Assembly (NCBI RefSeq): GCF_963675165.1
Contig: NC_087393.1
Span: 2,423,502 to 2,487,501, forward strand
Length of the DNA: 64,000 bases
Source of the DNA: Halichondria panicea
Taxonomy: Eukaryota; Porifera; Demospongiae; Suberitida; Halichondriidae
Direction of reading: 5' to 3'
Positions 6,567-25,200 of the stretch are shown here, piece after piece. Position numbers and translations under genes: made by a program. The notes under the pieces were generated by a model. The model made no database searches. It saw only the letters and a program-made list of their open reading frames with translations, and had not been told where the DNA came from. Every line of letters begins with the position of its first letter. Position 1 is the first letter of the stretch.

Positions 6567-8791
6567 CTATACTGGCTTTAAAACTATGCAGTACGTATGA
6601 AAAATTGCTAGGATTGGTAAACCGAAAAGCATTGAAACAAGAAATACTTTTTCACTGGTATAGTTTGAGTCTTTCAGCTTCACATGCGAATAGCTTCCAT
6701 CACTATCTTTGACCAGTGCCATCCTATATGCACTCCACCATAACATTGGATAATTTTCCTGGATATATATAGACATGCAATCATTGTCCGCAATTGAGTA
6801 TTTTACTGAATATCCATGCATGCATGTGAATTGTGATGAGCATAATTAGACTTATACTACTGAGAGATAGAAGTTTCAGAACTTTTCGTACCATTCACAA
6901 CGTTTTTTCAGCTATATACAGCTGTATAAGTATAGCTATAATTATGTACCTCTGTAAGACATCTGGCTAACCTGCATGGGCCCATAACCTGTTGGCAAGA
7001 GTATTTCAACAAGCATCAGCGGTACAACGCGTATCATATCTTCGACTATAGTCGAGAGAGAGTGAGTGATAGAATTTCACACAACAATAAATCAATGAAC
7101 ATGCATGTATAGGGTATAGTACACAGAAACGCGCAGGGCCTCTTTACAACAAAGAACTATAATAATGTTGCAGAACGTCCATTGAGGGAGGCTCTGCATG
7201 CACAGGAAACTCTACAGAGACTATACTAAACACAAACTATTAATTGTGGTACTAAACAACTATAGTATACAACTATGCACATGCATGCAGTAATTAAGTA
7301 AGTGTTCTGAAACACGTAACTAATATCAAATGGAACTTCCACTTGGAGAAACTCTACTCAAATTATACTGTGCATAAATCGATTTGAACTTCTTCTTCAG
7401 AATTTTACCAACCGTCTTGTGTAGAAACATTGGAAGGAGCACAAATAGAGGATATGACAGCTCCACTGAATAGATCCCATACCAAGATCGAACTAGAATG
7501 ACTGAAATAGGTGTACTTGCCGTATCGAAACCCAGAAATACAACAAGAATTGGTAGAGACCTGCACAACATTACTGCAGCAGTCCAAATCAAAACAATTT
7601 TAACCACAGTCTTAATAACATGGCTATTCTGGACAGTTTTCTTCTTAACATACACAATGGTCAAGATTGAGAACACTACCACAAGTACAAATGGTGGTAT
7701 TGTCAAGACTCCCAATGTAAACATTGTGATAAATGGGTACGCATAAGGTATTGCTGCACCAGGGTGTCTGCATAACGAACCCCTAATATGTTCTTCAGAT
7801 GATCCAATGAAGTGTATCATATTGGCTAGCAAAGAAACCACAAACATTGTGAAAAATATTCCAACAACAACACGTGTCGATATCTTTTTGCTGCCCCATT
7901 TAGCGGATATATACTGTACTAAAGACAGGAGAGCGTTACTGGCCAATAGCTGAGTCTGGAAGGTACCAAAGAGCACCCAGAATATTTTCGAAGTTTGAGA
8001 TTCACAAGATCCAAAGAACTCCACAGTAGTAATTAAACTGCAGTCCAATAGTAAGCCATAAGTTAGAGGACCAATAACGCACAGTGTAGCAGTACAGATG
8101 TACAAAATCGACACGGGATCTCTGAGTTCTTTGTTGGAGATGAATACCCCGAGAACAATAGGTCCAAATACTAGCACTGGAACAACTACCAGTAGAATGT
8201 GCAGTACTCCGCTGGCAATGTAAAAAACACTAACATCAGTAAAATTTTGCTGACTAATATTGAAAGCAGAATTGTTCACAGCAGTCATGTTGCGCAGTCG
8301 TACTATACTTTGAAATGTATGCTAACAAACATGCATAATTTTTATAGTCTTGTGTCATAGCATGAATCCCACATGTGACAGATTATATAAGGCTTATAGC
8401 TTATATAACGTGTCATATACACCTTGTTTAAAGCATGCAATGCATCAGCCTCTTTAAGAATCATAATCATAATTATTTTTATCATTGTACAAAGTCATGT
8501 AGTATTATAGGCTTGTTCACACCATGCACATGCAGACTTTGGAAGATATAGCTAGCGCTGAAGCAGAAACAAAAAAATTGCTGAGCAGATGAATAAATCA
8601 TGTAACATGGAAAGAATAGCTGTTAGCTAGCTCAATGAAATGGATTGTGTATTACAAAACAGCATGTATACCTCCAAAAAGGACAACCTCCTCCATTACA
8701 TGCAATCCATTGGAGTGGACAAACATTGGATGATAGGTTTTGGCCACAAAGTGCAGCGCACGTCCTGTATTCTGAGTTTCATCATTGTAGA
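6567..8791 (-). CDS. Unidentified gene, C-terminal part (3 exons), tail-anchored membrane protein
   Basis: Three minus-strand open blocks carry good splice signals and join in phase: 8791-8672 (acceptor before TCTACAATG, donor gtatac), 7045-6972 and 6758-6567 (stop TAG). The joined product contains GRALHFVAKTYHPMF, MEEVVLFG, RVVPLMLVEILLPTGYGP and LWWSAYRMALV, and ends in a hydrophobic segment, VFLVSMLFGLPILAIFH, followed by a short tail. That end suggests a single C-terminal membrane anchor. Exons further upstream were not found. I do not recognise the family. The receptor gene at 7326-8288 would lie wholly inside the intron between the first two of these exons, on the same strand. An alternative is that exon 8791-8672 splices to an acceptor at about 8308 and adds an N-terminus to the receptor; phase permits this too. 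Confidence 0.4.
7326..8288 (-). CDS. Seven-transmembrane receptor, GPCR-like, single exon
   Basis: The intronless 320-residue ORF starts at an ATG at 8288. Its N-terminus carries N-glycosylation sequons (NNS, NIS, NFT). Seven hydrophobic helices lie near residues 27-50, 57-81, 101-126, 138-161, 184-213, 227-252 and 265-289. Cys95 before helix 3 and Cys173 in the second extracellular loop could form the usual disulfide. The DRY position reads VQYIS, and helix 7 has SYPLFVL where NPxxY would be expected, so canonical rhodopsin-class motifs are weak. A basic stretch (KKKFK) follows helix 7, as in helix 8 of GPCRs, and the tail is serine-rich. The ligand is unknown. A lineage-specific rhodopsin-like receptor is the most likely reading. 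Confidence 0.75.
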   Translation of the reverse strand: MTAVNNSAFNISQQNFTDVSVFYIASGVLHILLVVVPVLVFGPIVLGVFISNKELRDPVSILYICTATLCVIGPLTYGLLLDCSLITTVEFFGSCESQTSKIFWVLFGTFQTQLLASNALLSLVQYISAKWGSKKISTRVVVGIFFTMFVVSLLANMIHFIGSSEEHIRGSLCRHPGAAIPYAYPFITMFTLGVLTIPPFVLVVVFSILTIVYVKKKTVQNSHVIKTVVKIVLIWTAAVMLCRSLPILVVFLGFDTASTPISVILVRSWYGIYSVELSYPLFVLLPMFLHKTVGKILKKKFKSIYAQYNLSRVSPSGSSI

Positions 8792-8799
8792 CTGACATT

Positions 8800-9440
8800 A
8801 ACATCAGTATAATGAATCGATTACTAAAAATTAATGTTCAGCAACAAACAGTTCAAAGATTCTAGCACTTTAGCACTGAATCCAATTTAAAGGCACAATT
8901 TGCACATATTCAGTTGCACATGCATATGCGCATGCAGTGACAGTGCCATGCATAATGCATATTTTTACAGGTAGATTTGTCACACTGTTTAGCGCAATTA
9001 AATTTGTCATGTTTGAGCTTTTATAGGGCTGGATAAACTTCGTTCAGATTGTTTACATGCAGCTTGTCACTCCACATAATTGGTGCATTTCAAAATTGTT
9101 TCTCTCACTGTCACACTATGAAACAATTATGCACGATAGACGCAGCTACTATACGTGTTGTATTACGATCAAGAATGAGTATATTGAACATGCACCATGC
9201 ACTAAAAGTTTACAAATGCTCTGTATAGAAAAACCTGACACTCAAGGACACAAATATATATACTGGTAACTAATAATTATTGTAAAATTGTACTAAAAAC
9301 GACCACTATACAATACCAACTTTTCGAGGGTGCACATTATAGGGGTTGATAGATTATGCTCGAGATATTACCAATTCTTTTATGCTCAAGTTAACAGCTA
9401 TAGCCTATTCAATTAAATTGCCTATTATTCCCACAATATA
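8800..9440. other. No gene recognised
   Basis: The stretch is AT-rich with scattered GCATGC-type words. I saw no long reading frame, splice-bounded exon or clear terminal inverted repeats. Confidence 0.4.
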
Positions 9441-9445
9441 GGCCC

Positions 9446-9860
9446 TTGTTGCATTTTGACCTCTGAGATCAAAGGAAACACTGTGCCAATATCTGCCATG
9501 CGGCACAGTTTAGATGGTGAACTGTGCCACTATCTAGATACTGGCATAGTATGGCTGAAGTTACCTAAAGCCCACCCTCCACCCAGTAACCTGAAACGGT
9601 CCATATAACACTGTTGCAGTATTCACAGTGGTAGGCAGAAAATGTTTTTCATGCGTCCAGTGCATTCCACAGCCGACCACAAGTAGTTGCAAACTAGTTG
9701 TCCGAGTGATGTGTACACGGAAAGGAATGCAACAAGGAATGCAACAAATCAGTTGTTACACAGCTCACTCATGCGCACGATATATTGGCTCAGTAGTGCC
9801 TTTGCCCTCGAGGCCGCATCCCATGTGGCACATGTGCGTCGCAACTATTACATAATTCTC
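9446..9860. repeat. Second copy of the composite inverted-repeat element of 24.9-25.6 kb
   Basis: The left part (9446-9560) repeats the TGTGCCAATATCTGCC hairpin module. The right part (about 9600-9855) repeats in reverse the module with 'ggaatgcaacaa', 'acacagctcactc' and 'atatattggctcagtagtg'. Order and junctions match one half of the element at 24929-25625, so this is a one-sided copy of the same family. Confidence 0.65.
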
Positions 9861-9920
9861 ACCAAAAAAATGTTATATCAGCATTAGATATCGACCAACC
9901 CCTAGTGCACATTTCTACTA

Positions 9921-10490
9921 CAGTAGACTCTAGCTATTCCGGCTCTCTGAAGTACGGCCATTAATTTTGGCTAGCTAGATGTTTACTGCACAAAACTCGT
10001 CCTGAAATGTTGCCACTCGCTATTCTGTATACTGGCCAGTACTGGCTGCCACAAACTAGGTTTTCAATGTAATTTTATACGTTCATTACGGCCGGATATG
10101 ACATTTTGGGTGTGGTTTGGCACAGTTAAATAGAGAGCAGAACGATTCATTAATTATCCTCGAGATGACAGAACTGCAAAATTAGTTATTATATACCGTA
10201 TTATTTTGCAGGTGAAAAACCTTTGCGAATGAGCCAAATCAGCAGGAAATTTGCGTTCTGGAAAGGATCATGTGTATTTACTAGTAATAATTGCGGATTT
10301 TATTGTTGCGAATTATCAACCATCGCAAAGTTCGCAAATGTTTGATGCTTGCAAAATATTCTAGTAATACGGTATATAGATTAGAGGTAAGGTCGTTTTT
10401 AGCCGCGGCTATTTTCTGAAATACAGCCACCTCACTATTCTGGCTAAGCTGCACTGTCCCAAGGGTGGTCGGATTAACGAGAGTCTACTG
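9921..10490. mobile_element. CAGTAGACTCTCG MITE (Tc1/mariner-Tigger type) carrying a nested MITE
   Basis: It begins with 'cagtagactctagctattcc', ends with 'aacgagagtctactg' and is flanked by TA. Complete relatives of about 420 bp lie at 48567-48994 and 59854-60271. This copy is longer because another MITE (10194-10374) sits inside it. TA flanks and the CAGT start fit the pogo/Tigger group; no transposase ORF is present. Confidence 0.8.
10194..10374. mobile_element. Nested palindromic MITE ending TACCGTA..TACGGTA
   Basis: It is bounded by 'taccgtattattttgcag' and 'ctagtaatacggta', with internal inverted 'ttgcgaa/ttcgcaa' words. It interrupts the CAGTAGACTC element; sequence on both sides continues the intact copies at 48.6 and 59.9 kb. 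Relatives lie at about 49710-49880, 30815-30930 and 39537-39610. Confidence 0.7.
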
Positions 10491-11267
10491 TATTTGGCTG
10501 GAGAGCCCTCAGAGGAAATGTTCATGGGTTGTAATAATGCCAGGAAACCACATCCACCAAGAGCTTTGCATGTGCATGGGAGTTTATCTCAGTTTAAATG
10601 TTCGCGTTAACTGCTCTGCCCTCGAAAAACGCGAAATTTTGCACCTCATGAACATTTCCCTGCTTACAGGCCTTCATAGAGAAAAAATTGACAGGGGGGG
10701 GGGGAAATCAACATTTCAGAAAAATGGGGGGGCGAGGCGATTATTCGTGTGCGTTAACACACGGCCATCTAGGGGGGTCTGGGGGCATGCCCCCCCAGGA
10801 AATGTTTGTATTTAGACTGTCGTATATCGCACCTGGTGCATTCTTATGAACTGTGGTGTCAGTGTTAGGTTTATTAGTATTGTAGAATGTAATAAAAATA
10901 CAGAAATTTAATTGAACTGCCTGCATGCACTGAATGGTACTACGAGTTATCAGATAAAAACCATAGCCTGAGCGACACAAGCCTTTCTAAGCTCACTTAA
11001 TGAAAGTTACTCTTGAATCGCCCTCTGTACTTGCAAATAGTGACTTAGAAGAAATTGTGGACATATAGAACAGAAAGAGTAGAAGAAAAAATTAATAGCA
11101 GTTTAATTAAAGTAGCTTTGTAAAGAACTTATTATTGTATTGTTGTTATGAATATTAAGACAGAGCTGTTTGTTTGGTTGGTGTGACCACAGGCAGTGTG
11201 TTATGGCCTATATTTTCAATACAATTACCAGGGGGGGGGGGGGAGCGCCCCCCCCTATATGAAGCCC
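10491..11267. other. Intergenic stretch with G/C homopolymer hairpins, no gene recognised
   Basis: G-runs at about 10697-10735 and 11231-11243, and paired C-runs at about 10790-10796 and 11248-11255, give hairpin-prone blocks. Similar G/C blocks end the element near 31.5 kb, so these are probably transposon remnants. Confidence 0.35.
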
Positions 11268-11404
11268 CAGAGGAGATCCGACATGCGTGCACGAATCACT
11301 ATATACAAGTTCAGTGCATTGATGTCATTGCGGTCACATGATAACATCCAGGCCAAATGCGCTGAACTTGTAGTGATTCGTGCACGCATGTCAGACCTCC
11401 TCTG
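11268..11404. mobile_element. Mutator-like MITE, CAGAGGAG..CTCCTCTG termini, 9-bp target duplication
   Basis: The 137-bp element has near-perfect inverted arms of roughly 45 bp (ATGCGTGCACGAATCACTA and its complement). It is flanked on both sides by ATGAAGCCC, a 9-bp direct repeat typical of Mutator-like elements. A longer relative with the same end bases lies at 62949-63365. Confidence 0.85.
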
Positions 11405-11554
11405 ATGAAGCCCTGGCTTATACGCAGCTATTTATTACCATCTTATTTACGAACTTATGTTGCTTCTGAACCGGTAATTATAATAATGTTGAATACATCA
11501 GGTTTTACAACAGAAGAAAATCAAGCAAATAATTTAAAAAAGGTCATACAAGAG

Positions 11555-14500
11555 TCAGCACACACAAGATATGTGTGATACAGTATCTGTTTTGAGACTA
11601 TGAGTCCACTTGCCAAACTGCATTTAGCTAGTTGAATTGCTGTAGGAAATTAAAAATATCCATAACATGTGTATACATAACATGTAATGTACATGCATGT
11701 ACAAACATACAGCACATGAAAATTGATATAACGTGCTTATATAAAGAATGGGTTCTCACTTACCAGCTTGACACTAGGGCTATCAAACTCAGACATTGAC
11801 AGCTCAGAATGGTTTTCTTTATCTGAAGAAGGATATACAGTCCTTGTAGAGCATGTAATAATACACTACGGATTACAATAGCATCATGATTCTGTGCGAA
11901 ACCTGGCTCTTATAATAAATACACAGAATTACTTACCAGGAGAATCTTGAAATACTCTATTAGCGAATTTTTTCCTGAGAGCTGTTGCAATAACTGATGC
12001 TGGGTCACTATCTAATACCTCTTGTGTTTCTGTGTTTTGCTTACGCAATGGAGTACCACCAGGAGATCTGAACAGTACAAAGCATAATTATAGTATTACA
12101 TATTGGTCTACAGTCTGGAATCGAACAGCACATTGTGCACACACTGCCTTGCTACATTGGGTGCATGCCATGTACGCGTTGTTAAAATTACATCAATGGT
12201 CAACTCATCAATGGTCAAAAATGGCTGCACAACAAAATGCTCATTACTATTATTTTTGCAAACCAATCATACACAACCACCCATAATTAACTTTCAACAC
12301 AATTGGTAAAGGGTCACCACTTAAGCGAACACACTAACTCACCTTACTGCATGGACAGTCCTCAGTTTAACACTGCCTATGTCCCTGAGAACGTCAGTCA
12401 TGGGTGGCCTTGCTGGAGTAACCTGCGGTCGAGTCTCAGCAGTCGAGGAGGCTTCACTTTGGGAGGGCCGCCTCGCAGTGAATATCTGGGAAGGGAATGG
12501 TTCTAAACTTCCACAAGTACATGTACATGTTACATGTAAGTATGGCACTAAAACAAACAGTGTATCACGTACAGAGGAATGTACATGTACACAGAGGAGG
12601 AATGCCAGTGTCAAAAGGTCACTAATTAAAACATCACGTGGCCCTATGTTTTACATGTAAAACTGAGTTTACCCTCGCGCCCCTGAGTTTATACACCATC
12701 AATAGCTTGATCCTCTTTATAATCACAACAGAAATCGGTTGAGCTATCGCGCCCCAGAGGAATCAGCTTGAGAGAGGAGATCCAGGATTTAATTGCAACC
12801 TTTGACCTTTTATTGCATTCTTCAAAACCACAAGATATGGAAATTAGCCTTCCGTGGCTAGGGTAAAAATTTTGATGCACTGGCTTGCTGCACTGGATAG
12901 ATCTAGGTATAGTAAGCTTTCCAAGCAGGCAAATAAAGAACAGAAGCGCTAAGCTGCTATATGCAGCAAAGGTCAAGAACCCAGAACAAGAATGTTTAAT
13001 CCTTCATTAAACGTGACCCTATTGACCCTGGCGTTCCTCCTCTGACATGTACATAATACTGAATTCATTAAATTGAAATTGATATTCATATCAATTTCAA
13101 TTTAATGCACACTAGTCCAAATGCTGACAAACATTGTAGATCGTACATCAAACATGGCTCTCACGTGTGATTGTGGTGCTGTACTGAGTGCAGGGGGAGG
13201 AGGTGGTGGAGGAGGGGCAGGTATTGGGAGATCCCTCGTCTCAGCAAGAGCATACACTGCTATCTGAGCCTTCAGCTTAGCAAGCTCACCTTCCAGAGCA
13301 GATATCTTCTCCATAGTAACTACAGTACATTAGTGGCATTTTACAGTTAATACATGTACATTTGCGAGACAAAACTCTCCGTAGAATATTCAGTACAAAA
13401 GATTAGTGCACACATGCTAAAATCAAGAATGGTCTATAAAATACATGTGACAGTGCTGGCCTGCTTAATGCATCACGTGTGTGCTCCCCTCCCCTGTAAA
13501 GGTAACCATCTTACGGTGCTTGTCTCCTCCCTCTCCACTACTGTCCTCCTCAAATTCCACACCCTCCATTTCAAAAAAACTGGCCTCTTCAAGTCCATCC
13601 TCAGTAATTAGGTCCATGTGGGCGCCATCTCTTCTCGGGTCCTTGAGATAGGAGAGTGCTCGGAGGCCGTCAGAATCTTGAGCCAGTCTCTCCCCAGTGG
13701 CAGCATACCGCACTTCCATACCAGGGGTAGAGGGAACGCTTGCACTTGTAAGCTAATCGTGTGGGAGCAACAGTGAATAAGTAAGATGTACTGTTAGTGT
13801 AAATATGTAAAGTAGTTGTTACACAATGCACTTTGAGCTTCAAAAAACGGGTGTACATGTAACATGATACACAATTAATACAAGTAAAAGTCCAGCTATA
13901 CATGCACATAGTTACTGTACTGAGTCTGTCACAATGTATTTTGCTCAAAGATCCATTTGCAGTGTTGTAAAGTTAGGGAACAGGCTGATTTACTGTTAGA
14001 TAACAGACATGCACTCACCTGAATGTACAGCCTCTTCCCAGTTCTGATGGGTAGACAATCTCCCACTTGTCTCACTACACTGCGAGATCCACCATGTTTA
14101 TGCTGGAGGGAATAGTGTAAAACACCCGATATTAATTTGGCTGTTCCTCCTTCCTTTGATACAAAGGAGCTGAACGACTTGGATCAAGATTTGCTTCCTG
14201 TGAATCATGGGATGACAACACCTATAGATGTTGTCATCCTATGATTTGCTATAGATAGCATTAAAGGCAGTCTCGCATTAATTCTTGATGTATAATTAAT
14301 TTATAAATGTGGCCCTTAATCTGTCCCCCTTAATCAATCCTCTTTATATCCCCCAGGCCGCCGCCATAAACTCCTGGATCTTCCGGTTGCTCTTGATGCC
14401 CGGTTCATCCTCCACACCACTGCTGACATCAACCCCAGCTGGTTGAATCACTTTTAGTAGATCGCCAACATTGTCGGCATTGAGACCGCCAGCTATAATC

Positions 14501-16374
14501 AATCTGTTCGTCAATTCCTCAGGGATGACACTCCAATCAAAAACCTTGCCGCTACCACCTAAAAGCTTAGTAGGAGTATCCAACAGAAGATACATGTAAG
14601 AAGCACTTGGGTATTTGGTGACTGCTTCTCTGATAGAGTCAGTGCCAGTTGCTTGAATGGCTTTGATGTAAGGGAGGGCAAATGATAGGCAGTACTCCTC
14701 GCTCTCGGAACCATGAAACTGTATCATATCGGGTTTGACAGTGTTGATGATTTCATGCATGTCCGCCTCGCTGTGGTTGGCAACTACCACAACGGCCTTT
14801 ACACCATCACATTTATAGTCAATAAGCTGTCGCAGCATGGCTATTTCCTCTATACTAATGTAGCGTGAGCTACTCGGAACTTGCATCAAGCCGATGGCAT
14901 TGGCTCCCGCTTGGATAGCTGTCCGCAAGTGGTCTTTACTGCGGATGCCGCATATCTTGATGATTAGCTTCGAATCCCGATGCCCCTGTCCAACAGGTAA
15001 ATGCATATAGCTGATAGAATCAGGGTTAAGAATATAATTAGTAGAAAATAGGTACAGTGTATGTCACTAATACGCCATAGCGGAAAGCGTTCACCATCAT
15101 ATGCATGTAGAGTACAGGTTGAGCAGTGATGCTTTTTGTCAAAACTCTGCTCTGGCAGCAACTCTATGGAGGTATTAAAGCAGCAGTCGACGCAGGCGGC
15201 CGCCCTGAGAACCAAGTAATTAATTTTATATTGTCCGGCCTAAGCTCACTGTATTAACAGCAGGATTTAGACAGTAATGCAACTGTACACTTATCACGTT
15301 TTGCTGACAGTACCGTAAAAATTCTAATAAAGGCGCCACAAAAAATTGGCACACATACCAATTGAACAGAGAAAAATACATGAGCCTCAACCGGCGCCTC
15401 ATCATTTAGAGTAATGGCCACGTTGAAATTACAGGATAAATAGCTTTGATGGCTTCATTTTTCATTACGGTTCAAGTTGGCGCTAAGCTTTTAAGAGAGT
15501 GGGGTCTTTATTAGATTTTTTTTGGTACCTTCACTATAAAATCAGACAACCGGTTGTAGAGAGATTACTTTTTCTTTCACGGTTTGTATATCTTGCATGT
15601 AAGACCTCAATATTATCATAGATAGTAGAGGAGAGGGATTGGAAACGGGATCACGTGAGCTTATGCTTGCCATGTGAGGCCTCTGGGACAGTGCGTTCAG
15701 CAACCAATAGACACCTTGAGGTGTGATTTTACTGGTTTTGAGGTCAAGAGAAGCTTTTGAAAAGAAGCAAATGAGAGGATACTAGGTAAGTAAATGTATG
15801 AATAGCCCTAAAATTTGTCTTGAGGCATGGCTAGGTACAAAATGAAACATTATTACTAGCTAGAAGTCATGTTCACTCTTGGTAGCACACGATTTTACAA
15901 CACTTAGCTTCTCCGATTTGTTGATTTCCACTAGCCATCTTTGCGGGGTAGCATCTCCATAACTAAGCTGAGTTTATATTCGAGACTCGGAAATATTAAA
16001 GATCAATGTCCATATTATTGCTTCCAATCCATTAGATTTTGAAAATCACTATTCATGCTCTGATTTTGTCACCGCAGTGTCGATGTGTGGCAAGAACTTG
16101 GACTGATAAATGCAAGGACGGTCCGTGTGAAATAGTGCTAATTGCCTGTGTTTCCAATCCCCTTCCTCTACTATCTATGATATTATGCTTGGCGCTGTAA
16201 TTACATCAACTTTGAACATGGTATAAATACTCACCACACAAAGAGATTGTGAGCTCATTTTCTGTACTTGCAATAACCTGAAAATGTAGAGAGATCTATT
16301 AATTAAGATTAAAAAATAGGACACATCTTCAACCAAAATAATGATGTGCTCTAATCAGAAAAATAATACTCACC
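11555..16374 (-). CDS. MTFR1-like mitochondrial fission regulator
   Basis: Coding exons are 16258-16235 (ATG in the exon 16277-16235), 14102-14019, 13752-13515, 13319-13165, 12485-12343, 12067-11937, 11822-11764 and 11617-11555. They join in phase to 298 codons plus stop; vertebrate MTFR1 has about 330. An upstream non-coding exon ends at 16374. Family signatures in order are HGGSRSVVRQVGDCLP, the coiled coil KISALEGELAKLKAQIA, a polyproline run near PIPAPPPP, MTDVLRDIGSVKLRTV, and DPASVIATALRKKFANRV. These match the MTFR1/MTFR2/MTFR1L arrangement, proteins that act at mitochondria and influence fission. Joining the first coding exon gives MSSQSLCV before HKHGG, which resembles the vertebrate QSVLWSRKPYGSSRS region. 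The intron 16234-14103 contains the trpF-like ORF and a 575-bp MITE. The last exon (FGKWTHSLK...) is the least certain. Confidence 0.8.
13066..13107. repeat. Perfect 20-bp-arm palindrome in an MTFR1-like intron
   Basis: The arms 'cattaaattgaaattgatat' and 'atatcaatttcaatttaatg' are exact complements separated by two bases, and would form a cruciform or RNA hairpin. No transposon ends or target duplication were seen around it. Confidence 0.7.
14110..14343. other. Gap between the trpF-like stop and an MTFR1-like exon, with a small hairpin
   Basis: It holds an inverted repeat at about 14199-14247 ('atgggatgacaacacctata' with its near complement) and otherwise AT-rich DNA. No exon or AATAAA was recognised, so the 3' end of a separate trpF transcript cannot be placed. 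Confidence 0.45.
14344..15006 (-). CDS. trpF: Phosphoribosylanthranilate isomerase (TrpF-like), intronless, nested in the MTFR1-like gene
   Basis: The uninterrupted 220-residue ORF covers a full TIM-barrel PRA isomerase (family length about 200). This enzyme isomerises phosphoribosylanthranilate to CdRP in tryptophan synthesis. Signatures are KICGI with catalytic Cys19, GANAIGLM, SSRYI, MIQFHGSE, YLLLDTP with catalytic Asp143, GGSGKVFDW (phosphate loop), IIAGGLNADNV and GVDVSSGVE. Both catalytic residues and both phosphate-binding loops are kept, so it may be active. Animals normally lack the pathway, so transfer from bacteria or another microbe is the simplest reading. No other trp gene is visible. 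The ORF may start at the ATG at 15006. A 3' splice site (ttggacag before GGGCATCGG, 14988) would instead join it in phase to the leader exon ending at 16235, giving MSSQSLCV-GHRDSK. That would put it on the same promoter as the MTFR1-like gene. Confidence 0.9.
   Translation of the reverse strand: MHLPVGQGHRDSKLIIKICGIRSKDHLRTAIQAGANAIGLMQVPSSSRYISIEEIAMLRQLIDYKCDGVKAVVVVANHSEADMHEIINTVKPDMIQFHGSESEEYCLSFALPYIKAIQATGTDSIREAVTKYPSASYMYLLLDTPTKLLGGSGKVFDWSVIPEELTNRLIIAGGLNADNVGDLLKVIQPAGVDVSSGVEDEPGIKSNRKIQEFMAAAWGI
15220..15610. other. Intronic stretch with degenerate transposon pieces
   Basis: 'taccgtaaaaattctaataaaggcgcca' type words near 15312 and 'ggcgcc' words nearby recall the termini of the TACCGTAATTGATG family at 27.3 and 38.2 kb. 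No coding signal was seen. Confidence 0.35.
15611..16185. mobile_element. MITE with about 37-bp terminal inverted repeats
   Basis: The left arm at 15611-15647 (ATCATAGATAGTAGAGGA...GGATTGGAAAC) and its inverted copy at 16149-16185 differ at only a few positions. The 575-bp interior has no ORF. It lies in the intron that separates the leader exon from both the trpF-like and MTFR1-like exons. Confidence 0.75.
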
Positions 16375-16768
16375 TGACTGTGAATCTTCTACCGTTCTGT
16401 TGAGTTTTTCTTGTATCGTAATCGACAAGACAGTACAGCTACAGGTAGGTAGAAACTTCAAAGGAAAGGAGAGGATGTAGAACTTAGGAGAAAACTCAGA
16501 AAAGCTTTGTATTTAATTTGAACTGAAAAGAGTGTAAAAAAATTATCACGTGACAGCTAACGTTCCGGTTCAAGCAAGGTTCAAGATACTTTACCTCCGT
16601 GTACGAAGGTACGTGTGTTTAACAGTTTACAGTTAAGAAAAAGGTTCTCAAGACGTTCTTTACTACACTAGACACTTCTGTACTTACCACTAACAAGCTT
16701 ACTGACAGGCTTCTTCGTGGTGGTGTGCTTAAGAACTCTGACAAAAGTCCCTTGAAGGCTGTGCAATT
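16375..16768. promoter_or_regulatory. Divergent upstream region of the MTFR1-like/trpF locus and ARMC1
   Basis: The minus-strand leader exon ends at 16374 and ARMC1 begins with an ATG at 16769 on the plus strand, so both transcription starts fall in this interval. No TATA box is obvious. Assignment rests on position only. Confidence 0.4.
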
Positions 16769-19427
16769 ATGGATGTTCTAAAAGTGGTGCAACAATTGAG
16801 AGACTTAGCAGCAGATCCACAGAACAGAGCTACAATTGTTAGGGTACGTATCCTCAGACTTGTATGCATTAGCATGTGTGTGCACGCGTGATCTATATCA
16901 ATCAATATATTTCTAAAGTTAAACCGAGAACGTGTGCTGTGTTGTGAGGTTTCTTAGCGTCACTATGAGTGAACGAATCATTTATATATATATGGGCTTA
17001 GAAATTAAAAACTGGAAGTCAGAATGTACGTGATTGGGTGTGTGCTTCCTGATTGTTTCTTGGAAACTGCACTGCCTCTACCTCTATTAGGGATATGGTA
17101 CTGGTAGACTGGTACTGGTAGACTGGTACTGGTAGACTGGTGTCGTTTATGTTCACACATACATCTATACACACAGGATCAAGGCTGTCTACCTGGACTG
17201 GTTATATTCCTGGATAATGACAATCCGCACGTTGTGGGCACAGCATTGGAGGTAATAATAGCAGCCACGCAGCCACGAATCAGTCCGTGTGTACATTCTC
17301 CCATCGAATCTATGCCTTGCCCATACATATACTCGTTCATGTACTTTTTCCACTGCTGATTAATAACATAGCATTTAAATTCCTTTGTGTATTTGGTGTG
17401 TATTTGGTGCATGCATCTCTCGTGTTTTAATTATAAAACTTGTCCTAAACACAGCTCACATAGTGAGAACAATTCTCAGTGGTAGCATGTCCCCCCTCAA
17501 TGAAGTGTTTCATCCACACTCTGCTTGTCAATCACTACCTTTCACTTACTGTAGCATAGTTAGAGACTGGCTGTAACCTACACATGTACATGTAATTGCC
17601 TGTAGAATCATGAAACGTATGTGTGTCGGTGGACCGTCACTCTGTGGCTCTGTCTTGTTTATCCCTCTACCTTTTCTTTCACTAATGCCTGCTTGAAGTT
17701 TTGCTTTACTGGTATATGTACCCTCAACTGTGTAAGTCATGTGAAACTTTGAAAGGTTCTTCGGTACTATGACTATGTAACACATTTGAAGTGTAATTAT
17801 AGGTTTTCATGCTGATTCTGTTCTGTATATATATAGGCACTCTACTACTTAGCACAGGTGCCTTCCAACAAATCTCTCATGAAGAATGAAGTTGGCCTCT
17901 TGCTCAGTGTTAATAGGATAATCAGCAGGTATTGGTTAAAATTAATAACCGTACAGTACAGTACAATGTGTATGTACACTGCACTGAATATAGTGATAAG
18001 TGTTGTGTTGGCCTTTATTCATGATGTGCATTGTCAAGAATTTTACCAATAAATAAATGCTTTGTGGAGACATTCTGTTCTGATGTGTAAACATGTTTGG
18101 CTGTGTTTGGCTGTAGGTCCGGCTCTCCACCAGACGTTAAATCATCAGCGCAAAGAGTTCACGACCTTCTTATACCACCAGCTGGATCGACAAGGTACAT
18201 AATACACACTCTCCTGCTTGTACTGTATGAAGTGTTTGTGCAATAGCTGTTCCTGGAACAAATTTTGTTTTGATATCATAAGTATCCAAGCCCATCCATA
18301 GTCCCTACTTACAGTGCACAAGGTGCTGTATGTAGATCATTGTGGTGTGTCAACTGTATTATGACCTTTGTCCATGTTATGTGTGTGCAGACCACTCTCT
18401 CAAGCTCGCTCCACTCGTGGTCACCCTTTCCTGGGAGCCTCTAACAAGAGGGCAAAGGTCATCCTCCTGCAAATTGATGGACTCAGAGATCAGGTGTGTA
18501 AATTTTTATTTGGCCAGTACTCTTTTGCGTTAAAGGACAATTTGTGAGCAGAGCTCTTGTCCTCTGGTGGGAGGGGAAATGTATAGCCATATCATTCTTC
18601 CCTATCTTACTTGGAGAAACTAAGGAACTTGCTGAAATCCAAGATATGACGCAATAGTTTTTATGTGCCAGTATGATTAGCAATAACATTACTAACGATA
18701 TCTATCATAATGGACATGACATGTGGGTGTGATTTCCTGGTTGTTCATAATAAGAGGCAGTTTCACAGAGTTAGTCGTTGAAAGCATGAAGCTCGTCATC
18801 TGTCCCAAATCAAGAAGGTCCGCTCGTAGTGAGGTTTTTAGTGTACTAACTTATAATTATAGTGATTTCAACCCGTGCCTTAGCTAGTGTCTTTTATATA
18901 AAGAGGTTGTCTTCTGGTGGGAGGGTCCGTTATGGGAGGTTCCACTGTACTGAATGAAAGCACCACGGGTGCTGATGCCTCGGTGGAGGTGCCAAAGCTA
19001 CATAACATAAAACTACTAATAGCTAGCTTTTATACACACATTTATCATGATGAACATCTTTAATTGCTGCATGCAATCAACCTAATAGTGGGTAATGATC
19101 AACCATGATTGTTGTTAAAAACGATCGATTCAAGTCTAAAGTTAATGGCTGCAAGTTAGCATAGCTTTGCAGCTCTCTGCTCACTACCAATAGCTAGCGT
19201 TCTAGTGCAGAGCTAACTACTAAGTAGAGTAGTAACACTCGGTGAACAAGTTTTGCTACGGACTCTTCTGAAAAGGCTGCAATGGCATTCCAAGTAAGCA
19301 AAACTAGGCATAACTCGAGAACGAAGCATTATTTTGCAAATCCACGAATTAAAATCCAAGTAAACATGACTAGAAGCCTATAGAAACTCTTACTTGCACT
19401 TGATTCATCCTTGAGCAGCTGTAGCGG

Positions 19428-19470
<43 letters not shown>

Positions 19471-21730
19471 CCGTATACCTCGCTTGCGCATGCACACCGA
19501 GGCATAATGACAGTATTTGGCATACCATAACCTCTAGCTGTACAGCAGAGGTACATGCATGTACTTCTAATAAAGTATTCATCCTTTTACTTTGTGTTTT
19601 TCGCACTAGTTCAGTATACTGTGCCAAAATAATATACAAGCACTTGTACTTAGTTATGCTTTGGTGCATGCGCAAGTGAGGTATACGGTATAGTGTGTCT
19701 GTGTAGACTGCTATAGCTGCTCAATGATCAATGAAGTGCAAGCTTTCTTGGATTTCGATTAGTGGGTTTGCAAAATAATGCTTCGTTCTTGAGTTTTGTC
19801 TATTTTTGCTTAAATGGAGACCATTGCTGTCTCTTCTGACTCGTCCATAGCAATAATAGCTTCATGCAGGTTTCCATCGAGCCATCAGCACCTGCGATGC
19901 TTTGATTAATGAACAGAGCCTGTTGCTATCAGTGTTAATACATATAGGAGTCTCGCAGAGTGGTGGAGGAGACTTTCCTGGGTGTAAAGGGAGTGATCAG
20001 CTTCACATTCAACATGTCTCAGAGAAGGTGCTCTCTGAGAGTGAGATCAGAGGTTAGACCAGATGCCCTCTGTCATGCTGTGGAGCGATCAGGATCAATA
20101 TCTGCCAAGCAAGTCATCAAAAATGAGCAGGGGGAGGAGGTGAGTGACGGGTGCACAATAAGGTGCATGGCAGTTCCTTTGAATGACCATACATGTTTAA
20201 GTATGTACATGTACAATGTACATGTATGTAAGCATGTAAACATTGCCTCAAAAGATTATATACTGTGGATGGGGCAGCTAGTACTTATGATATTTCCATA
20301 CTCCAGGTGTTACTAGCGTTTGCTCCATCACCTCGCATTCCCAGTCTAGACGAGAAGGAGAATACACAACCTACTAAAGTGAGTAGTGAACTAGTGATCC
20401 ACCCACATCAACACTGCTATGTAATTGTTACCCGAGGCGTGCCTGGGCGGCCACGGGTATAGTAGTCCGTTGGTTTGTTTGTTTGTTTGTTTTTAACATG
20501 ATAATCTACTCACCTGGGTGCCATATAGCACTGGGTTTACAGCATGGATAGCCTTCACACAACAATATCGTTTAAATAGTGGCAGATTTTGCTCAAATAA
20601 AAGCGAGTAAGAAGCTTGAACTTGCACGTTGGCGCTAGCTAACTACCCGCGGCTTTTATTCGAGGTAGAGCCTACATTTACAGGTGACTTGATCCCGTAC
20701 CAGTAACAGGGTCACTAAAGTGAAAGCTAGAATTGTGACTAGTTGTTGGCTGACTCTGGACCAGCCTGGCAGGAGCCATACTACTCTAAGACTCCAGGTT
20801 TCTTATGCTGTTACCCCAGTCCACAGTGCATGTCTCATGTACCACTAAAACTCTGTTCTCAAATGTTTCAGCATGCCTTCAGTCTGGTTTGCTCTTGAGT
20901 TGCTGTGCAGTGCTAGTCATACATGCTTACATGCACTGCATTATTATTTATATCACTCCTCTGGTTTCTTTATAATCATGTCACCAGCCGAGGGTTTGCA
21001 CTTTAGTGCTCTTGTTCTTGTTTGTTTTGTTGCTTACTCTACTTATGTACATTGTGTGCGCTGTAGTGTATTGTATCTGTAGTTACAACACGTAATCCAG
21101 CTTGTCAAACTTTGTAATTGTGTGTCTCTCCTCCTATAGCTGCCAGACTACTTACCAGAAGATAATGATGAATCTCACAAGGATGATGAAAAGGTAAGGT
21201 TACCAGAAGACAGCCTGTATGCCAATAAATTGTAGAATAGTAATGGACCTAAATGTAGATATGTGTATGTGTGTTCATGCATGTACATACTGTATAGCTG
21301 GTATTATTTCGAGGGTATAAAATGTTCGTGGTTTTCGCAGATTAGGCATGTACTGCGAACATTTATAACCGCGAATTTAATATCGCATGCATGCATGCTG
21401 CAAAAAAGGCACTATTCCACGAAAATTAAATCCACGAAAACCCTTCTAAAGTAAAGGCATTTCCGCGAAAGTTTATACCCTCGAAATATACCCGCTATAC
21501 GGTATTTTGGTTTGTTTTATAACGTTAGATACACAGCAGGCATGTATAGGTTGATAAAAATAATGTGAATATGCTCATACTTTCTATTTAGAGTTACATT
21601 TTCGTACAAATACTAATGCATCTCATGTTCGTTTTTCTTGCAGGCCATTGAAAGAAGTGGAGCCGTGGGTCAAGGTGGAGGGTGGTTCAGCTCTGTCAGT
21701 AGTTTCCTGACCAACTCATTCTACTGGTGA
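16769..21730 (+). CDS. ARMC1: Armadillo repeat-containing protein 1
   Basis: Nine exons (16769-16843, 17177-17251, 17837-17928, 18117-18194, 18391-18493, 19948-20139, 20307-20378, 21140-21193, 21644-21730) join in phase to 275 codons plus stop; the vertebrate protein has 282. The match to ARMC1 is clear throughout: QLRDLAADPQNRATIV, DQGCLPGLVIFLDN, FLGASNKRAKVILLQIDGL (start of the HMA-like domain), LGVKGVISFTFNM, LPDYLPEDN, and the C-terminal SFLTNSFYW, which parallels NFLSRSFYW. ARMC1 is a cytosolic and mitochondrial outer-membrane protein linked to mitochondrial distribution and the MICOS/MIB bridge. Its divergent neighbour is also a mitochondrial-dynamics gene, which may be chance. Intron 5 is swollen to 1.45 kb by transposons. 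Confidence 0.95.
17101..17143. repeat. Three tandem copies of a 14-bp unit in ARMC1 intron 1
   Basis: The unit ctggtagactggta is repeated three times before 'gtcgtttatg'. It looks like replication slippage. Confidence 0.7.
18526..18947. mobile_element. TACAGTGGAACCTCC-type MITE (Tigger-like) in ARMC1 intron 5
   Basis: The right end 'gggaggttccactg' is followed by TA. The interior shares 'gagcagagctcttgtcctctggtgggagg' style words and 'gggtccgttatgggagg' with the copy nested at 40399-40872. The left end is worn. No transposase is present. Confidence 0.65.
18955..19905. mobile_element. Inverted pair of ACCTCGCTTGCGCATGCGC-type elements
   Basis: The left copy runs from 'gaaagcaccacgggtgctg' to 'cgcttgcgcatgcacaccgaggcat' (about 19505) and includes an (AC)n tract at 19431-19468. 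From about 19660 the same sequence returns reversed ('gcatgcgcaagtgaggtatacgg', later 'aataatgcttcgttctt'), forming a long imperfect inverted repeat in ARMC1 intron 5. Single copies lie at about 30186-30790, 32424-32942 and 45590-46140. Confidence 0.6.
20430..20700. repeat. Partial CCCGAGGCG..GGCCACGGGTATAGTAGTCCG element in ARMC1 intron 7
   Basis: It starts at 'acccgaggcgtgcctggg', then (TTTG)n and a stretch on 'caccTGGGTGCCATATAGCACTGGG' lines shared with the copy at 30.19 kb. The far end is missing or degenerate. Confidence 0.5.
21305..21505. mobile_element. Palindromic MITE ending CCCGCTATACGGTAT in ARMC1 intron 8
   Basis: 'tttcgagggtataaa' at the left is answered by 'tttataccctcgaaa' at the right, then 'tacccgctatacggtat'. 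It is about 200 bp with no ORF. Sister copies: 41440-41653, 55995-56193, 57768-57984. Confidence 0.75.
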
Positions 21731-22248
21731 ATCAAACTCTCTCTTTATTTCTGTTCTCTCTGTCTATGTTATGTTTTGCACGTCATGTAGTTTTATGTTT
21801 TATTGTGCACAATGGCTCAATTATGATCGTTGAAAAGTGGCCTTTAGCGTCAATTGATACCTCTTTTGTGTTCATTCTCACACATCCACCTGTATCCAAT
21901 CAAATTTCTTGTTCTGCTGTACACATGTACATAATTACGAAGATTTTGCATGCATGACATTAATTATGTTCACTCTGGGGTTGATCGTATGAATGCATAT
22001 TTCATATATCTGATTGTGTATGTAATGCATATGCCGGGTTACTGCCATGGGCGTGGATTTTTCCATGCAAGGAATTGATGCATGTGGCCTTTGGTTTTTC
22101 ATCAATACTATATTGATATAATATAACTCTTATAATTATAAACAATCGTTGGAGCTAGTGGTTTCACTATAATTATGATTAACCCTTCATATAAATAATT
22201 TATTGTAATCTGATTTGCGAATTAAAAAGTAAATAATTGTGCATGTTT

Positions 22249-25200
22249 TTATCTATGGTTGTGTTCCTCATTTGCAAATATTGTTGGTTTGCTTGTTGTC
22301 TGGAGCTCTTGCTTTAGCCAGTTCACTCGTGCTGAAACTGATTTAGTCCTTGAGGTGTTTGGAGACCCCGCTTGTCCAGTTGGCTTTGGAGGTGGAACTG
22401 GTGCGATCTTTGGAGGTGGAACTGGTGGGATCTTTAGCTTCGTTGGTGAGAGCACGACATTCTCATGGGTCTTTCTTTGGTTGTTAAATAGGCTCTGGCT
22501 CCTTGCCTCCGATTCTGGATGGTGATCAGACGGCCATATCGGTGTCTTTGCCGCTGGATATTGAGTGGGGTGTAAGGTCTCTGTGTGTGGAGAAGTTTGC
22601 TTTTCTGGACTGAGTTGATCCGGTAAATCGTACATGTGTCCTTGTACCAAGTCAAAACTGAGTGGATTGAAGTTCTCGTATTTTGTTAATTTCTTTTTAA
22701 GCTCTGCACCTGTCAGTGGGAACCCTTGTTCATTGAGATTTACGTAGTCTAATTTGTCATCATCAGAGTCATCTTCATCTTCTGGTTGACTACTTTCACT
22801 TTCACTTTCTGTACACTGTATAATCGACAATCAAGTTTATAGGAGGTAAATGTACCCGTCCTGGATTTACAAGTGTATTTATACCGGAAGGCAGTTACGT
22901 ACTGTATTATAACGGGAAAATTTGGCGACGATTGGTGAATTTTACTGAAAATTAAGTGGACGCAACGTCTTTGCCGTATATAGTAGCCACGCCTGAAACC
23001 CCAAATTAAAAACACCATTTCCGTCATTTTCCAAATTTTCCCGTTATACGGTACGTATTCATGAGGGTGCATGCACGGCAGGAATACATCATAAACATAA
23101 TTATAACTGTAAGTAAAAGTGTATGTAAAGACCCATAACCGTGGCAATAGTTTTTCGTGGGTTCAGTATAACGGGTATACTAGCTATATAACGCATAACC
23201 TTGCAGTTGTATACACACGTACGTGTAGAAGGGCATTTTTAATATAGATCACAGAATGAGTGGCCGGGGGAAAAGGTACCTTTGCACAAAATAATAATAA
23301 TAGTTACCTCCTCATACGAATACTTCACAGAGGTTGTTTTGGCTGGAGGAACTGGAAGAGCAATCCTATTAGTAGCTCGCGAAGGAAGGGGAATAGGCTG
23401 CCTTGTGCCTGCGATAGAGATGGATTGATGGTGTGACTATTCATTTAGTCGAGCTTACCATGAAAGGCAGTTTGCTGATCCTCGGCATTTGAATCATTCT
23501 CACTCTCAGAGTCAGTCGAGTCTTGTTCACGTGCAGCGACCATGTCCACATATTCTCCAGATTCATTGGTGAACAAAAAATCCTCGCTGTCTGCTTTATT
23601 TGAACTTATTGAGGATGGTGATAGACCAATGTTAGGCGATCTTTTGTAGGCTTTTGAAGGGATTAACACCGGTGCCACCTTTTTTTGTGGTATTGCAGGT
23701 TGCTGTATAAGTACATACAGAGGAGACTAATAAATTACTAAATTTTGATACTGCATATAAAGTACTCTAGCCTTGAGATATAATTATTGGGAATATTTGG
23801 CGAAGATGGCCATTTACATATCACATAGGGAAGGCCAGCTTCAATATTTCTAACTCAAATCAACCATAATTTATGCTGAGCATTGTTTACTTGGAAAGAT
23901 CCAGGCTTTTTGAAGGGCAGAGACAATCTCTTATCTGTCGCTGAGAAAGGTGTTTTTCTCGGCAGTGGAGGAAGAGGTAGCATTCGTCTGGTATTCTGTT
24001 GTTATAAATAAAGTTACAAAATGCATGCATGCGAATAAAATGGACGGTCTTTCTATTTGTATAAATGTATATGACCTCTTGTGTTTGGTAGGTTGCCTCC
24101 ACACATACAGCAGGAAACAAGCCGTGCTTTCCATCACTTGCTCCATACCACCAACCAGCTTCACGTGAGTGGCTAGTGACAACGTAAACCTTTTGACCAA
24201 TCTATAACCAAATCAATGAGTATTGTATTGTAATAGCATTGCCGTAATGCATGCATATCACTAGCTTCTTGCTTAAAATTAATAGCAGCAAAAGTGTACA
24301 TTGTATACCACCAAAGGGGAACTTACTTTCAAGCTAATCTTTCCTGGTTCTTGTGTGTAAAAATCCTGTTTGACAACGTAAACGCGTTTCACATCGTTTT
24401 TCATTTGGTTCCACATTGACACTCTATCAACGTCAACTGGCTCCAACTCAGCGGTTTCGTCCAGACCCACAGTATTAATAGCCGGGCTTGAAAACGAGGC
24501 AGTTATCACAGCCTCTTCTTCATCCTCCACTGCATCAAGGTTAGGGCTTGAGTCTAATGCTCTTACTACTTCCTCATTTCGTTTTTTCGCTGCAGGATCA
24601 CATCAAATTATGCACGTTATAAAAAATTCCGATATACTAGATCTAGCTGCTTACTTGTTTCATTTTTTCTTGGTCGCCTGCGTTGCTATAAGGGCAAACA
24701 ATTATAATGAGCAATTGTGACGAGGATACATTGGATTAACTCACAGCGGCAAATGCATAGGCTTCTTTTTCCATGCTTCTTAGATTAAACTTTTGAGCAA
24801 GATCTGTTAAGTTTTTCTTTTTCCACTTCTTATCTGAAGTGTTGGAAAATAGCATCATGCATGCTTAATATAATTATACCACTCAGTATAATTATTATCA
24901 TTATAATTATTAGGCCTTATAATTATTATGTTATAGTTGTGACACATGCACGAGTGCCACATGGGATATATTGGCTCAGTAGTGACTTAGGCCCGAAGGC
25001 CTCGAGGGCAAGTGCACTACTGAGCCAATATATCCAATGTGCGCACAAGTGAGCTGTGTAACAACTGATTTGTTGCATTCCTTGTGCATTCCTTTCCGTG
25101 TGTACACATCACTCGTTTTATAGGACAACTAGTTTCAACTACTTGTGGTGGCTGTGGAATGCACCAGATGCATGAAAAACGTTTTCTGCCTACCACTGAA

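Follow-up and report, generated by a model that had tools for sequence, protein, structure and literature searches.

The stretch of DNA analysed here (C17:2423502-2487501, 64,000 nucleotides, hereafter the window) lies on a 5.74 Mb contig of a 131 Mb genome in 39 contigs. It carries a bacterial-type trpF gene, encoding phosphoribosylanthranilate (PRA) isomerase (PRAI), as a single open frame of 220 codons that runs from ATG to TAA on the minus strand without an intron. The gene and the leader of its product were mapped as follows, in window positions and with the evidence in brackets:

14344..15006 (C17:2437845-2438507), minus strand: trpF, phosphoribosylanthranilate isomerase, 220 residues, single exon, intact (open reading frame, PF00697, alignment, fold model)
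14962..15006, minus strand: N-terminal leader of TrpF, MHLPVGQGHRDSKLI, preceding the barrel (alignment; fold model of low confidence at residues 1-9)

The original prediction of a full 220-residue PRA isomerase frame with Cys19, Asp143 and both phosphate loops, free of stops and frame breaks, was borne out in each of these respects. The PRAI family profile PF00697 matches the translated frame with 145.8 bits (E 1.6e-42, cut-off 22.7) over profile positions 1-192 of 193. A 16-row alignment of relatives has 39 invariant columns, which include Cys19 and Asp143, taken by us to be the catalytic residues, as well as parts of both loops (A172-G173-G174-L175 in one; V192-D193-V194, G197 and E199 in the other) that are presumably phosphate-binding. 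The AlphaFold model (mean pLDDT 88.9, pTM 0.86) predicts a (beta-alpha)8 barrel that resembles solved PRAI structures most closely. The closest structure in the PDB is T. maritima PRAI (1nsj; E 7.8e-21, TM 0.82/0.88), and the top 14 structure matches are all PRAI or TrpC-TrpF bifunctional enzymes. When the PDB was searched by sequence, nine distinct sequences were obtained, every one a PRAI or bifunctional TrpCF by name. The window frame is an intact TrpF, with a family match and fold far beyond chance. It most likely still encodes a phosphoribosylanthranilate isomerase, and selection acting on it is plausible.

The gene resides in an animal chromosome. Exon-level searches gave 10 Wnt matches in the genome, compared with 0 in 14 prokaryote controls; Wnt genes are, to our knowledge, restricted to animals, and the genome that holds them is therefore an animal one. 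Within it, trpF is found mid-contig, at 2.44 of 5.74 Mb. Its composition (GC content 0.48; third-position GC, GC3, 0.520) is close to that of other genes of the genome, nine other coding stretches (trpC included, see below) having a GC3 of 0.339-0.518. Six-frame Pfam scans of window positions 8001-23000 returned PRAI and a match resembling mitochondrial fission regulators, and nothing else. The immediate surroundings of the gene are:

15007..15171, minus strand: 5' flank of trpF, non-coding (in-frame stops), ending in CTGATTCTATCAG directly before CTATATG (tblastn with P0003)
14019..14102, minus strand: mitochondrial-fission-regulator-like exon, 3' of trpF (PF05308, E 9.4e-5 and 6.9e-4; AG/GT borders)

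The end of the 5' flank, CTGATTCTATCAG before CTATATG, looks like a splice acceptor, albeit a putative one. P0003, a TrpF relative from another data set, has an N-terminal extension that aligns to the translated flank (tblastn with residues 1-60, E 2e-17, a match that includes the first 13 trpF codons). P0003 is thus preceded by a similar flank, and a similar locus therefore exists in a second sample. Contamination or misassembly, whereby a bacterial piece was wrongly joined into the animal contig, had been raised as a caution with the original prediction. However, it is highly improbable in view of the mid-contig position, the composition, the 8001-23000 region devoid of Pfam matches other than PRAI and the fission-regulator-like one, and the similar 5' flank in another data set.

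The spliced animal exons that had been proposed to flank trpF at close range were recovered in part. One exon of 28 residues, with AG/GT borders read from the sequence, does lie on the same strand 241 nt past the trpF stop, but its PF05308 scores (23.2 and 20.3 bits in two scans) are below the cut-off of 26.3. Of the candidate upstream exons listed for this fission-regulator-like gene, none was convincing. The 1000 nt downstream of trpF contain no AATAAA or ATTAAA polyadenylation signal and a single TATAAA, at 38 nt. Around trpF, sigma-70-like promoters are not in excess (5 found versus 5.2 expected), and terminator-like sites number 5 versus 1.4 expected, two of these within trpF on the opposite strand. 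A palindrome at 14203-14246, between trpF and the fission-regulator-like exon, consists of two 22-nt arms, 91% complementary and without spacer, and looks like a small mobile-element hairpin. On the plus strand, an exon-like frame at 19960-20140 presumably resembles the C-terminal part of ARMC1; Pfam, searched up to E 1, gave it no match.

Horizontal transfer had been proposed for the gene, with a homologue search and a tree suggested as a check. This origin is upheld by the animal-chromosome setting together with the position of the window TrpF among bacterial TrpFs. The best 120 of 6070 relatives were listed, and a scan of GTDB genome contigs contributed the best 80 of 587 relatives (596 stretches); nearer bacterial kin may exist. 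Trees were computed with 108 rows (the window TrpF, 67 of the 120 listed relatives and 40 of the 80 GTDB loci), and with 59 and 33 rows picked by hand. P0001-P0006, which are 56-98% identical to the window TrpF, group with it first, followed by P0007-P0009 and then P0010-P0018, all among Gammaproteobacteria, where P0017-P0023 and the SAR86 type are found as looser kin. A 14-row clade containing the window TrpF and the SAR86-type sequence has a support of 93/93 in the 33-row tree, and the wider clade has an SH-aLRT of 95 in the 108-row tree. P0060 serves as the SAR86 representative, being 97-98% identical to P0269 and P0292, both named SAR86. Of the 24 nearest TrpF relatives listed, 14 have a leader of the MHLPVGQGHRDSKLI pattern; P0060 lacks it. 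The named kin are Gammaproteobacteria at 43% identity (the best among the best 80 of 587 GTDB relatives) and SAR86 at 37%, while a profile search with 11 sequences of the wider group found other members named SAR86 and Gammaproteobacteria. The contigs that carry P0007-P0020 reach 2.2 Mb in some cases; these relatives may be from bacteria or from other animals. Viral contigs, when scanned, yielded a single distant TrpF (32% identical), which is uninformative. Since no chlamydial TrpF was identified, a chlamydia may have served this gene as a go-between. The data support a TrpF of gammaproteobacterial type, of bacterial origin and horizontally transferred into the chromosome of an animal.

That the gene is an ancient eukaryotic TRP1 (the yeast trpF) inherited vertically has next to no probability. 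Constraining the window clade to group with yeast TRP1 lowers the log-likelihood by 13.1 units and is rejected (p-AU 0.033, 33-row tree), a weak rejection given that eukaryotes are represented in the tree by this single sequence, on a very long branch. The placement among bacterial TrpFs and the lack of introns also speak against it; in its favour, fungi and choanoflagellates retain tryptophan genes, according to the available text of PMC4339202.

A variable in-frame repeat (with units such as DGNL, DGSL and EGSL) was seen just before the GGSG loop in P0011-P0018 except P0017. It varies between similar proteins, some of which are encoded on contigs of ~2 Mb.

The original prediction of a lone trpF did not hold, as a PF00218 search of the genome revealed an intact trpC on another contig, in addition to a broken copy:

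C14:3527509-3528261 (L002:1486-2238), minus strand: trpC, 250 residues, one exon, no intron, chlamydial type (PF00218)
approximately C14:3582750-3583145 (L003): second trpC copy, with a frameshift close to its start and cut short after ~110 residues, ~54 kb from the intact trpC

The intact TrpC matches PF00218 with E 5.6e-76 and exceeds one NCBIfam equivalog cut-off (281.8 versus 260). Residues E46, K48, S51, K108, E156, N177 and S208, which we take to be catalytic in indole-3-glycerol phosphate (IGP) synthase, are the same in all 12 aligned rows, and the fold model has a pLDDT of 92.4. The tail-to-tail neighbour of the gene is a multi-exon oxidosqualene-cyclase-like one, identified by three exon-level Pfam matches (L004; two above cut-off, one below). 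The nearest of these is ~1.3 kb from trpC, and the last cyclase exon, as read, ends 345 nt away. Within the duplication, identity is 95.9% for the trpC piece common to both copies, versus 83.6-91.4% for nearby pieces in the same orientation and down to 70% for outlying ones. Compared from codon 12 over 98 codons, the two copies differ by 4 synonymous and 3 replacement changes (pS 0.058, pN 0.013, with one two-change codon excluded); these small numbers point to constraint.

For TrpC, 8000 relatives were scored and the best 120 listed, and trees were computed with 65 and 32 of 121 rows. The near relatives P0121-P0124 and P0126 are 66-93% identical. In the 32-row tree they form, with the genome TrpC and 10 Chlamydiia-type rows (two of them, P0125 and P0127, named Chlamydiia), a 16-row clade with a support of 100/98. 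Grouping TrpC with Verrucomicrobia instead was rejected (p-AU 0.026). The six candidate animal TrpCs are not monophyletic in the best tree, as P0123 is placed among the Chlamydiia rows. P0123 may therefore be bacterial, or more than one TrpC transfer may have occurred, while a single clade of the six is not rejected (p-AU 0.278). A chlamydial donor of TrpC is reasonable if the host is a sponge, because genes for making tryptophan are reported to be more frequent in sponge-associated Simkaniaceae (PMC9666466, available text) and Simkania negevensis is reported to possess a complete trp pathway (PMC3937554, available text). The contigs of the top 24 TrpF matches and those of the top 26 TrpC matches have no length in common, and thus nothing suggests one operon as their joint source. 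The two genes, for consecutive steps, were probably assembled from two bacterial groups.

We put at roughly 0.6 the probability that a bacterial trpF was transferred into the animal nuclear genome, has been kept there, and still encodes a PRA isomerase that acts with the transferred TrpC. A number of observations weigh against this. The pathway around trpF and trpC is open at both ends: the profile search of the genome, conducted exon by exon with only the best candidates scored (threshold E 0.001), gave no matches for trpA (PF00290), trpB (TIGR00263, TIGR01415), trpD (the PF00591 catalytic domain and TIGR01245, whose single scored candidate was too weak) or the trpE chorismate-binding domain (PF00425). 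TrpF is under the cut-off in 13 of 13 matching NCBIfam models (best 198.2 versus 215), this cut-off being a naming threshold for bacterial proteins and not a defining property of PRA isomerase. A two-residue insertion, M138-Y139, is located shortly before Asp143 and is seen in one of 16 rows, the window's own; the near-identical P0001 lacks it. The 93/93 support of the 14-row TrpF clade falls under the tool's star. Furthermore, P0003, which shares 92% identity across 68% of the query, stops short at the GGSG motif and carries Asp in place of the invariant Lys17; this may reflect decay or sequence error.

It is very unlikely that the remaining pathway is present but was missed, being diverged or split by introns, and that the animal makes or recycles tryptophan itself. 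An exon-by-exon search that scores only the best candidates, and the one TIGR01245 candidate that fell short, allow for such an oversight. However, the same type of search did recover split genes, namely Wnt and kynureninase, and is thus able to find intron-split genes. Kynureninase is represented by nine exon-level matches (C9:6171148-6175992, L008-L015), none of which alone exceeds the whole-protein cut-off. These apparently form two tandem sets, and three of the nine have internal stops; one set may be broken, or matches may run into introns. In addition, two models each for trpB and trpD found nothing, and any further trp genes acquired by transfer might well lack introns, as do trpF and trpC. 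A PF01212 match was considered as a tryptophanase and rejected, since NCBIfam scores identify it as an aldolase gene. Located at C10:854343-855197 (L105:1498-2541), this intronless pyridoxal phosphate (PLP) aldolase frame has 347 codons, listed from GTG, and scores 444.7 with NF041359 (cut-off 230) and 322.3 as a low-specificity threonine aldolase (cut-off 312). It is possibly another bacterial-type gene.

A changed function, in which TrpF would act on a different sugar-phosphate amine (barrel isomerases are capable of this) and be paired with TrpC by coincidence, seems improbable to us. The adjoining pathway steps that were not found and the NCBIfam scores under cut-off would fit such a change, as would the insertion before Asp143, where the model is less confident (residues 131-160, block means 79, 66 and 78). 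On the other hand, the 39 columns, Cys19 and Asp143 among them, that are invariant in 16 of 16 rows, the PRAI or TrpCF identity of the top 14 structure matches, and a trpC in the same genome all argue against it.

The genes could also be decaying relics, with trpF and trpC inserted by chance, never functional in the animal, and intact through luck or youth. We regard this as unlikely, and retain it because P0003 looks decayed, unless its changes are sequence errors, and because expression, activity and selection are presumptive for trpF. The truncation of P0003 and its loss of the conserved Lys17, the frameshifted and truncated trpC copy ~54 kb from the intact gene, and the lack of surrounding pathway steps are consistent with decay. 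Against it, the named active-site residues are kept down to 56% (TrpF) and 66% (TrpC) identity, provided that the relatives are animal genes, an animal setting being seen for P0003 only, by its flank. A single genome has kept two consecutive steps, and the trpC piece of the duplication is more similar between copies than its neighbourhood, with pN lower than pS.

If trpF and trpC have been retained as cooperating enzymes, the known chemistry, in which TrpF converts PRA to 1-(2-carboxyphenylamino)-1-deoxyribulose 5-phosphate (CdRP) and TrpC converts CdRP to IGP, indicates that the pair should convert PRA to IGP. As no TrpD was found, PRA would have to come from elsewhere: from microbes, from a promiscuous host phosphoribosyltransferase, or by slow chemical condensation, a possible route to PRA. 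Kynureninase can supply anthranilate, and our best guess is that anthranilate from the animal's own kynureninase would yield PRA via a promiscuous phosphoribosyltransferase or chemically. The genome encodes a quinolinate phosphoribosyltransferase. As no TrpAB was found, IGP would be exported or otherwise used, and at a best guess would pass to a microbial tryptophan synthase or to indole compounds. For both genes, expression and catalytic activity are inferred, as are the origin and fate of the metabolites. In its full form, the scheme is a tentative and rather doubtful one: a host-encoded bridge from two donors that takes kynurenine-derived anthranilate through PRA and CdRP to IGP, with resident microbes or an unrecognised host enzyme finishing the route to tryptophan or indoles.

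Intact bacterial trpF and trpC genes in animal chromosomes are surprising, animals being thought to have lost the pathway. The original prediction had relied on this lack, and the available text of PMC4339202 agrees that tryptophan biosynthesis was lost along the stem lineage of animals; TRP2, TRP3 and TRP5 are named in that text and TRP1 is not. The same text attributes most animal matches to lost genes to lineage-specific transfers or contaminants, and its figure could include trp matches. A catalogue of gene transfers in Metazoa counts Porifera among its top seven phyla (PMC13342648, available portions). The main text of an Amphimedon transfer list contains no trp terms (PMC4784904). The titles and abstract openings surveyed report no trpF or trpC in an animal genome, and a supplementary-table entry may exist. 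If our reading is correct, two consecutive middle steps have been regained, apparently from two bacterial groups, in a patchwork recovery of part of a lost essential pathway. Such a genome would make it possible to test directly whether a biosynthetic pathway is shared between an animal and its microbes, or whether the animal recycles products of tryptophan breakdown.

Compared with known systems, the window gene resembles bacterial TrpF/PRAI of gammaproteobacterial type (PF00697) in its full-length domain, its Cys and Asp residues and its predicted barrel fold. In contrast to these, it is a nuclear gene of an animal, has the leader and the insertion before Asp143, and adjoins no other trp gene. 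The genome TrpC likewise resembles chlamydial IGP synthase (PF00218), being 61-63% identical to that of the Chlamydiia metagenome-assembled genomes P0125 and P0127 and in one clade with them (100/98), but it is found in an animal, near a cyclase gene and with a broken duplicate ~54 kb away. The Metazoa catalogue shares with the present case foreign genes in animal genomes; unlike here, the portions of its text available name no tryptophan-biosynthesis gene (PMC13342648). The closest analogue known is the Trp/kynurenine/Trp cycle that the available text of PMC3937554 describes for Chlamydia caviae and its kin. Both combine kynureninase, TrpF and TrpC, with no match to anthranilate synthase. However, trpD, trpA and trpB were not found here, the genes are unlinked, and the carrier is an animal and not a pathogen; because TrpD and TrpAB were searched for and not found, we do not count trpF and trpC as a member of the C. 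caviae cycle. If the proposed bridge is real, it would be an animal counterpart of this chlamydial cycle, divided between host and symbionts.

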